This document shows positions 44,343 to 62,701 of a DNA stretch of 64,000 nucleotides, in pieces. This DNA comes from Caldifarciminota bacterium (GTDB taxonomy: Bacteria > Hydrothermota > Tepidihabitantia > SM23-42), in assembly GCA_027026255.1 (NCBI GenBank), contig JALVOT010000017.1:62001-126000 (forward strand). Direction: 5' to 3'. Positions within the stretch are counted from its first letter, which is position 1; the number at the start of each line of letters is the position of its first letter. The notes under the pieces are model-generated. The model had not been told where the DNA came from, made no database searches, and saw only the letters and a list, made by a program, of their open reading frames with translations. Made by a program: the position numbers and the translations under genes.

Positions 44343-44489
44343 ACCCGGAATGAAAATGAAAAAGAGAAAGGTATGGACGGACATCCCGAGGTAAAAATCA
44401 AGCTAAAATAAAAGCACGATATCAAGAAACAAGATTATAATCTCAACAGCCAAATCACATTAAACAAATCTTCATAATCCGGTTTCAAT

Positions 44490-44859
44490 CCTGACTCCTC
44501 TCCACTTTTTTCATTATGCCTTCTGGATTAATTGTAACGGTATTCTGGACAGAATAAACTTCCCCGAGATTATTAAACCAAGACGAAAAATACTCAACAA
44601 CTTCGTTTTACTTTATATTATTTTATTGGTCATTTGAAAAATTTCTCTACCATCTTTGCGCGTTTCCATTTTTCTCAGCGCGGGCGGCGGTTCCATTTTT
44701 CTCAGCGCGGGCGGCGTCCCCGCCGCCCGCTGGAGGTTTGTCATCCTTAACTCCTTTCAGAATCTCCTGCAGCTCGCCAGGCGCCCTGCCTCGGGGCGAG
44801 ACGCCCCCCGGCTATATTGTAATTACAAAAACCGGGACAAAAAGTGGAGAGGAGTCCGG
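44490..44859 (+). mobile_element. MITE-like element, copy A
   Basis: 370 bp without a credible gene. It is bounded by CCTGACTCCTCTCCACTTTTT and its complement with one mismatch (~21-22 bp terminal inverted repeats). A 7-nt imperfect direct repeat (TTTCAAT / TTTCAGT) flanks it, as after insertion. Inside are two tandem copies of a 26-nt unit (TTCCATTTTTCTCAGCGCGG...) and a very GC-rich hairpin (CGGGCGGCG/CGCCGCCCG). A second copy occurs at 61976-62360. The ORF 44656-44874 inside it is a repeat translation and not a gene. Confidence 0.8.
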
Positions 44860-44870
44860 TTTCAGTCGCA

Positions 44871-44898
44871 TTGACAATGAATATATTCTCATTATAAT
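44871..44898 (+). promoter_or_regulatory. Promoter of the YIP1-family gene
   Basis: TTGACA, 16 nt, TATAAT. The -35 box is exactly 11 nt from the end of the mobile element. Confidence 0.75.
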
Positions 44899-44928: not shown

Positions 44929-45603
44929 ATGGGTGATTTATTAAATATTTTTACTGAACCAGCAGGGGTCTTTGAAAAACTTAAAGCACATCCGCATTGG
45001 TTAACACCTTTTCTGGTGGTTTTGATTATCGTTGCCCTGAGTTCGGCATTAACCTTTAAATTGGGTCGAGAAAAGATTATGGTCCGACAGGAACAGTTAA
45101 TGCGGGATCGCGGTATGACCGATGAAGAGATTGAAAAAACCCTGGAGATTTCCCGCGGTCCTTTACCGATTATCTTCAGTCTAATCGGAGGCGCATTTTA
45201 TACAGCGGTTATAATCTTATTATTATCTCTGGTGCTCCACCTTTTTACTCCGGTCTTTGGCGGAGAGAGTAATTTTCGTCTTACCTTCTCTGTAGTCTGT
45301 TATAGTTCACTTATACTCGCCGTGGCGGCAATACTGAAAATTGTTCTGGTTGCCGTAACACATTCTCCTTATATATCAACATCCTTAACCCTTTTTTCAC
45401 CCCGGCTTTCTGAAAAAACCTTCCTCTATAAACTCCTTGCCGGCTTCGATTTCTTTGTAATCTGGGAAATGATTCTGGTGGCATTGGGGATATCCATTAC
45501 CAACAAAATAAGAAAAGATAATGCATATATCTTGGTCTTTGCAATCTGGATTGTTTCGGTATTTATCGGTATTGGCCTGGGCAGCCTGCACGGGCAGGGA
45601 TAG
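44929..45603 (+). CDS. YIP1-family membrane protein
   Basis: 224 aa with five hydrophobic segments (WLTPFLVVLIIVALSSAL, LIGGAFYTAVIILLLSLVL, and three more in the C-terminal half) and the YIP1-like start LLNIFTEPAGVFEKLKAHPH. Ribosome site AAGGAG. The role in bacteria is unclear. It precedes an efflux operon, possibly co-transcribed. Confidence 0.75.
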   Translation: MGDLLNIFTEPAGVFEKLKAHPHWLTPFLVVLIIVALSSALTFKLGREKIMVRQEQLMRDRGMTDEEIEKTLEISRGPLPIIFSLIGGAFYTAVIILLLSLVLHLFTPVFGGESNFRLTFSVVCYSSLILAVAAILKIVLVAVTHSPYISTSLTLFSPRLSEKTFLYKLLAGFDFFVIWEMILVALGISITNKIRKDNAYILVFAIWIVSVFIGIGLGSLHGQG

Positions 45604-61647: not shown

Positions 61648-61851
61648 TTATGCGCGTTCGATTTTTGTGGCCTTTTCACCTTTTGGGGTCTTGATAATTT
61701 CGAATTTAACCCTTTCACCTTCTCTGAGTGTACGATAACCATCTCCAACTATATCCTGAAAATGGGCAAAGACATCGCCACTACCATCTTCTTTTTCAAT
61801 AAAACCGAACCCCTTCTTACTATTAAACCACTTAACCTTTCCAAACGCCAT
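61648..61851 (-). CDS. Cold-shock protein (CspA family)
   Basis: 67 aa single cold-shock domain with both RNA-binding motifs: [20 protein letters not shown] (RNP1) and DVFAHFQDI (RNP2). GAAAGGAGTAAG precedes the ATG. A predicted leader of ~80 nt is in line with cold-shock genes. Confidence 0.95.
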
Positions 61852-61936: not shown

Positions 61937-61964
61937 ATTATATTCAAATATAATAGTTTGTCAA
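61937..61964 (-). promoter_or_regulatory. Promoter of the cold-shock gene
   Basis: Minus strand TTGACA, 16 nt, TATAAT. The -35 box is exactly 11 nt from the left end of mobile element copy B. Confidence 0.75.
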
Positions 61965-61975
61965 TATATATTCGC

Positions 61976-62360
61976 CCTGACTCCTCTTCACTTTTTTCAT
62001 TATGCCTCCCGGATTAATTGCAACGGTATTCTGGACAGAATAAACTTCCCTGAAATCCCTGAAATCATTAAACCAGAACGAAAAATACTCAACAACTTCG
62101 TTTTACTTTTTTTTATATTATTTATTGATCATTTGAAAAATTTCTCTGCTATTTTCGCCCGGTTCCATTTTTTTCAGCGCGGGCGGCGTTTCCATTTTTC
62201 TCAGCGCGGGCGGCGTCCCCGCCGCCCGCTGGAGATTTGTCATTCTTAACTCATTTCAGAAACCCCTGCAGCTCGCCAGGCGCCCTGCCTCGGGGCGAGA
62301 CGCCCCCCGGCTATATTGTACTTACAAAAAACCGGGACAAAAAAGTAGAAAGGAATCAGG
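61976..62360 (+). mobile_element. MITE-like element, copy B
   Basis: 385 bp, clearly the same element as copy A at 44490, with scattered substitutions and small indels. Ends CCTGACTCCTCTTCACTTTTTT and, on the complement, CCTGATTCCTTTCTACTTTTTT. It carries the same tandem TTCCATTTTT...GGGCGGCG units and GC-rich hairpin. It lies between two divergent promoters. No clear target duplication. Confidence 0.8.
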
Positions 62361-62371
62361 TCAGTTTTCAA

Positions 62372-62399
62372 TTGACATTAAAAACCTTCTGTATATAAT
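62372..62399 (+). promoter_or_regulatory. Leaderless-type promoter of the 98-aa gene
   Basis: TTGACA, 16 nt, TATAAT, 5 nt, ATG. The -35 box is exactly 11 nt from the right end of copy B. Confidence 0.75.
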
Positions 62400-62404
62400 T
62401 TTCT

Positions 62405-62701
62405 ATGCAAGAGAAAAAGGCGATTCGTTTTTTACGCAACCTTTATGCTGAGCGCGGTTATGTCAAAGTAAAAAAAGGTTACAAATCTTCCCACAGCGGG
62501 TGGGAGATACGCTTTTCCACACTTGATAGTGAAGAACGCAAAAAATTGAGAAAGGCGATGAGATTATTCGGATTTAAGTGCGGAAAACAGTTTAAAAAAC
62601 ATTCAAGGATTGTGGTCCCCTATTATGGTTTTAATCAGGTATCACAGTTTTTTAAGCGGATCAGACCAAAAACAAGCAAGGTTCCAGAACAATACTTTTA
62701 A
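62405..62701 (+). CDS. Hypothetical 98-aa basic protein
   Basis: Starts MQEKKAIRFLRNLYAERGYV; very basic, alpha/beta pattern, one cysteine, no membrane segment. The size and charge would suit nucleic-acid binding, but no motif proves it. There is no ribosome site, and the promoter abuts the ATG, so the mRNA should be leaderless. Family not recognised. Confidence 0.65.
   Translation: MQEKKAIRFLRNLYAERGYVKVKKGYKSSHSGWEIRFSTLDSEERKKLRKAMRLFGFKCGKQFKKHSRIVVPYYGFNQVSQFFKRIRPKTSKVPEQYF

Follow-up and report, generated by a model that had tools for sequence, protein, structure and literature searches.

We show, by comparing insertions within and between genomes, that a family of mobile elements in candidate division WOR-3 bacteria inserts upstream of promoters that already exist, in a fixed register and with duplication of 9 bp. 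The repeat of about 380 bp from which this work started is, on the strength of its sequence, a MITE, a non-autonomous derivative of a Tn5-like insertion sequence (IS) of the IS4 family. We consider it probable that the promoter, acting as a functional unit, steers the integration of MITE and IS, most likely via the promoter-bound RNA polymerase holoenzyme.

MITE copies in the window

The window (the whole stretch of 64,000 nucleotides that was analyzed) carries two copies of the MITE, A and B, which are 88% identical and whose ends are imperfect inverted repeats (CTGACTCCTCTCCACTTTTT) (Table 1). All three outward promoters in the window are perfect 12/12 matches to TTGACA-N16-TATAAT. In copy A, the −35 box starts 12 nt past the element's right end, and the left end is the promoter-distal side of an ordinary insertion with the duplication GTTTCAATC/GTTTCAGTC. 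An earlier, sequence-only reading of this DNA had placed three ends (44859, 61976, and 62360) 11 nt from TTGACA. The promoters and the fixed distance stand, but the true value is 12 nt; the shorter one arose because the boundary took in one G outside the element. That reading had also described the intervening nucleotides (11 by its count, 12 by ours) as not conserved between copies, and their sequences do differ. A search of the window against Rfam gave no RNA family, and tRNA was ruled out as the target, there being no tRNA in the window. The palindrome GCGGGCGGCG and the tandem 27-nt GC-rich units inside the MITE vary among copies and are perhaps a nested repeat.

Table 1 MITE copies, adjoining promoters, and neighboring genes in the window
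Feature	Position	Strand	Description
MITE copy A	44491..44858	+	368 bp; terminal repeats CTGACTCCTCTCCACTTTTT...AAAAAGTGGAGAGGAGTCCG
Left target site duplication, copy A	44482..44490		GTTTCAATC; 8/9 identical to the right one
Right target site duplication, copy A	44859..44867		GTTTCAGTC
Promoter adjoining copy A	44871..44898	+	TTGACA 44871-44876, N16, TATAAT 44893-44898
Yip1-domain protein gene, 3' of the copy A promoter	44929..45603	+	PF04893, E 6e-18
MITE copy B	61977..62359	+	383 bp; without 9-bp duplication; promoters 12 nt off both ends
Promoter left of copy B	61937..61964	-	TTGACA 61964-61959, N16, TATAAT 61942-61937
Cold-shock domain gene, downstream of the left copy B promoter	61651..61851	-	PF00313, E 7e-26
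Promoter right of copy B	62372..62399	+	TTGACA 62372-62377, N16, TATAAT 62394-62399
98-aa ORF downstream of the right copy B promoter	62405..62701	+	No Pfam match
Two tandem 27-nt GC-rich units, copy B interior	62160..62213	+	Matching pair in copy A, 44660-44713

Distance to the −35 box

Element ends were set by the 9-bp duplications, at CTGA...TCAG, and distances were taken from 64 elements of the window's own genome and its relatives in which at least 7 of the 9 positions are duplicated. Shuffled pairing of ends reaches this threshold in 0.7% of cases, and the duplication is exact (9/9) in 37 of the 64. The relatives' genomes are draft assemblies, and many insertions lie at contig ends.

In 60 of the 64 elements, exactly 12 nt, of which 9 are duplicated and 3 are not, lie between one end and the −35 hexamer. 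At this offset 56 elements have TTGAC (own genome 22/26, relatives 34/38) and four have a variant box: TTGATT (L019, L027), TTGTCA (L065), or TTTACA (L223). The box is off register by one nucleotide in L007 (at 13) and in L206 (at 11), while L022 and L235 bear the duplication with no promoter at 11 to 13; L235 looks like a case of later deletion. The sequence-only reading had named random distances at other copies as the outcome that would speak against it; the distances are not random and peak at 12. Because intergenic DNA is about 10% of the own genome by crude calls (47/464 kb), any tolerated insertion would lie near some promoter, and short intergenic regions with many promoters might by coincidence give proximity. 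Such a coincidence is refuted by the single-base peak, and we give it practically no weight: TTGAC matches in the same 128 flanks average 0.27 per other offset from 0 to 60 and never exceed 2 at any of them, against 56 at offset 12 (log10 P about −124).

Among the unique ends whose repeat has no more than one mismatch, half of which are expected to face away from the promoter, TTGAC lay at 12 in 31/70 ends of the own genome and 66/136 ends of the relatives; no other offset had more than 2. There is no fixed orientation; in the own genome the promoter-facing end is the left one in 10 cases and the right one in 12. Within the duplicated 9 nt the target logo is without consensus, and its best conserved part is the −35 box. 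The base before TTGACA is C in 37/58 insertion sites compared with 33/84 background promoters, possibly a further target preference.

Copy B, said earlier to sit symmetrically between divergent promoters, does have both of them at 12 nt, but it is atypical in having no duplication. TTGAC at 12 on both ends was found in five duplication-poor pairs versus 0/64 of the duplication-bearing ones. Since two-sided TTGAC occurs only among the former, recombination between two insertions is a likelier origin for copy B than a single insertion between divergent promoters.

Other genomes, a second IS, and empty sites

Several related WOR-3 genera carry the same terminal repeat in the same register, and the 12-nt register is retained by elements whose interiors differ, in other genera (family, order, class). 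A second IS, with the terminal repeat CTGAGTACTCCTCACTTT and a transposase about 44% identical, has TTGAC at 12 on 11/33 ends and three further variant −35 sites at that offset (TTGATT, TTGTCA, and TTTACA). Two copies of a distant relative in Heliobacterium chlorum, the only ones there, form a composite element and have no promoter at 12 nt; for distant homologues in a planctomycete and a gammaproteobacterium, no terminal repeats were recovered.

These comparisons bear on a suggestion of the sequence-only reading, that the element might serve as a portable activator from upstream, or as an insulator; this would require broad insertion followed by selection for the one distance at which it works. 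A fixed distance to the −35 box does resemble the geometry of activator binding, and the MITE has GC-rich palindromes and a stable predicted fold (z −5.8). We nevertheless found no positive support for the suggestion. Terminator-like signals in the window copies are weak or none, at chance level; spacing is equal for left and right ends, as the 10 and 12 own-genome cases show; and the same spacing recurs with unrelated interiors in other genera and in full IS copies of another subfamily. Selection would moreover need to have removed nearly all insertions at 9–11 or 13–15 nt, and we rate this explanation as very improbable. Because the interiors are unrelated and the spacing is the same, we conclude that spacing is set by integration rather than by a function of the element.

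Three insertions (L097, L129, and L143) were compared with sister genomes. The empty sites of L097 and L129 are continuous, with one 9-nt target followed by an intact promoter; the promoter therefore predates the insertion. L143 also has continuous empty sites, in a region that varies by another short palindrome as well. Genomes of genus g2 have the short palindrome AGTAGGGACACGCCATGGCGTGTCCCTACT at several loci, and its presence beside the MITE varies (L143 flank, sister loci L299 and L302). Targeting of DNA immediately upstream of promoters, the other proposal of the sequence-only reading, is strongly supported by the 9-bp duplications, the single register, the other genera, the second IS, and the empty sites.

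Probable recognition of the whole promoter

The register is fixed to the −35 box, the best conserved part of the logo, as would be expected if the transposase itself read TTGAC(A) and cut 3–12 bp upstream, with no part for RNA polymerase and with a −10 box present simply because intergenic TTGACA is usually borne by promoters. Direct reading of this kind has a parallel in other IS4 members, which, according to passages of a survey of the family, have sequence-specific targets in flanking arms (PMC2266710). We compared insertion sites, pooled from several genomes, with background promoters from 464 kb of the own genome (the window and L242–L261, with crude ORF calls). A −10 box with three or more mismatches was found in 0/56 insertion sites compared with 37/154 intergenic TTGAC (Fisher 5.7e-6). 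In addition, the −10 box is a perfect TATAAT in all four offset-12 sites with TTGATT, TTGTCA, or TTTACA, as promoter-level compensation predicts, versus 3/191 of the intergenic background occurrences of these hexamers. A good −10 box everywhere and a perfect one where the −35 box is poor favor recognition of the whole promoter, and it appears that the whole promoter rather than the bare hexamer is recognized; direct reading of the motif we regard as unlikely. The dependence on the −10 box could partly reflect purifying selection, as well as the fact that few TTGAC lie outside promoters where intergenic DNA is compact. In the same 464 kb, 84/96 strong intergenic TTGAC/TATAAT pairs have a 16-nt spacer; the spacer of Escherichia coli promoters is usually 17.

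Proposed mechanism

As the comparisons show, transposition duplicates 9 bp placed 3 bp upstream of the −35 box of a pre-existing housekeeping promoter, and either end of the element can face that promoter. The lack of a consensus in the duplicated 9 bp implies that the position of strand transfer is dictated externally, by whatever occupies the −35 and −10 boxes. We infer that RNA polymerase recruits the transposase: the holoenzyme would dock the transposase or transpososome, most likely by a contact with region 4 of sigma or with the C-terminal domain of alpha. If both boxes are at their standard positions, the segment that is duplicated spans about −46 to −38, the region of the proximal UP subsite, which the alpha C-terminal domains contact. 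The benefit would likely be safe insertion, with genes spared and the promoter left intact. The yeast element Ty3 integrates at a fixed distance upstream of the transcription start, guided by the initiation complex. It works alike without kinship, being different in its retroelement integrase, its use of Pol III, and its eukaryotic host.

Transposase family and comparison with known systems

The transposases match PF01609 (E 2e-13 to 1e-16). Against the NCBIfam IS4 model NF033591, L065 scores 159.9 bits (cut-off 152) and L163 146.2, just under. The Y(2)R(3)E(6)K motif that marks the IS4 family is present (IYRRRMTIEEGFRDLK), and D110, D173, and E272 are invariant, as is K279; the second spacing is 99, at the edge of the 100–150 given in passages of the IS4 survey (PMC2266710). 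The 9-bp duplication agrees with the approximately one helix turn expected of the family (9 bp in IS10, 8–9 in IS50). Tn5 transposase or its inhibitor form was the only match in a sequence-profile search of the PDB (E 2.5e-4 to 6e-4) and the best one in a fold search (E 5.6e-9). The AlphaFold model of the transposase is of modest confidence (mean pLDDT 64), with a good core and with N- and C-terminal parts below 50; because these ends are poorly modeled, no RNA-polymerase-contacting domain can be named.

At the level of subgroups, IS50 was rejected: the elements measure 1183 (L064) and 1260 bp (L065) versus 1350–1550 bp, although their ends agree with CW------Y---CA-A--W- except for A at position 16. 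With the IS10 subgroup (CT ends, 1200–1350 bp, 9-bp duplication), ends and duplication agree and size is borderline. Membership of the Mutator-type group (TnGBS, ISLre2, ISKra4) was also rejected: no Mutator, IS256, or ISLre2 model is among the Pfam and NCBIfam matches, and IS4 models match best.

The WOR-3 elements are like the IS50 and IS10 subgroups (Tn5, Tn10) in their PF01609 DDE domain, YREK motif, 9-bp duplication, and best PDB match, Tn5. Their terminal repeat starts with CTGACTC, which we take to be the start of the Tn5 outside end as well. They differ in the size of the IS (about 1.18–1.26 kb) and in a transposase of 360–370 aa without the long Tn5 C-terminus. To our knowledge, Tn5 and Tn10 are not known for targeting a promoter register.

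TnGBS ICEs, the ISLre2 family, and the ISKra4 group, which have Mutator-type p-MULT 3/4 DDE transposases, have been described as inserting a short, constant distance before the −35 box of housekeeping sigma-A promoters; the authors propose, by analogy with Ty3, an interaction with the RNA polymerase initiation complex (PMC3942029). The WOR-3 elements share this behavior and nothing more. TnGBS lies 15–17 bp upstream of the −35 box (13–17 in the table of PMC3942029) and the WOR-3 elements at exactly 12; a majority of p-MULT 3 elements keep to a single orientation (PMC3942029), whereas the WOR-3 elements insert in both; and the former belong to the Mutator superfamily, the latter, MITEs included, to IS4. 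The WOR-3 elements are thus not members of the Mutator-type promoter-targeting group. On balance we lean toward the view that this Tn5-like IS4 lineage evolved recruitment by the polymerase holoenzyme independently of the Mutator-type elements, with strand transfer placed to the exact nucleotide in the proximal segment of the UP element.

Passages of the IS4 survey note the spectacular target specificity of some IS4-subgroup elements and of ISRm22, and those passages make no mention of promoters (PMC2266710). In the open literature searched, where promoter-upstream insertion is known for Mutator-type elements, we found no earlier IS4-family case, which is weak evidence of absence. If our reading is correct, promoters would be sought out by two unrelated lineages of bacterial transposases, and the one described here, with a register tighter than in known cases, would belong to the family of Tn5, the most used laboratory transposase. 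Coupling of a transposase to the transcription machinery would become testable, promoters of an uncultured phylum could be read out in vivo and genome-wide from the insertions, and a promoter-seeking Tn5-like tool might be possible. The insertions also show how a compact genome carries dozens of them with little damage.

Copy number and origin of the MITE

The 2.1-Mb genome from which the window comes holds at least 40 copies of the MITE; it very likely belongs to candidate division WOR-3, as does SKW300 (matching G026, of the same order), its closest relative with a name. BLAST gave 44 matches, and a pattern search found 91 end-like sites versus 5 for the reversed control. The same genome has one truncated IS4-type transposase ORF (C1:46717-47484; L042 2218-2988; PF01609), whose stop codon runs into the terminal repeat that the MITE has as well; an intact transposase was not found there. 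The left ends of the MITE align to C-terminal residues about 212–256 of the truncated transposase (the last ~45 codons). Since its left end thus matches a transposase 3' end together with the terminal repeat, the MITE is an internally deleted IS4-family IS. Intact relatives are present in genomes G026 (L064, 1183 bp between repeats) and G024 (L065, 1260 bp, 9/9 duplication).

Bacterial MITEs are short, non-coding, multi-copy, and intergenic, have terminal repeats and target duplications, and are mobilized in trans by a related IS (PMC10969869). The WOR-3 repeat has the terminal repeats, the absence of a transposase, the origin from a coding IS, and the copy number of such elements; it differs from bacterial MITEs in general in that it lands at a position which, measured from a promoter, is constant to the nucleotide.

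Three own-genome copies on C4 (L005, L006, and L012) have one common flank (GGGTTTAAG TTTTTTAAATTTTAAATTC), which suggests segmental duplication or recombination between copies. In G024, more than 40 ends of one IS (L268–L296) lie mostly at contig ends, which probably means that an IS family in this genome is young and expanding and interrupts the assembly. Finally, the ORFs adjoining transposase genes at L042 (3005-4996, beside the remnant) and at L072 in G002 (3-932) are alike and share motifs such as WCHGA..GIGL and SLCHGD.GN, a putative resemblance to LanC-like lanthipeptide cyclases.
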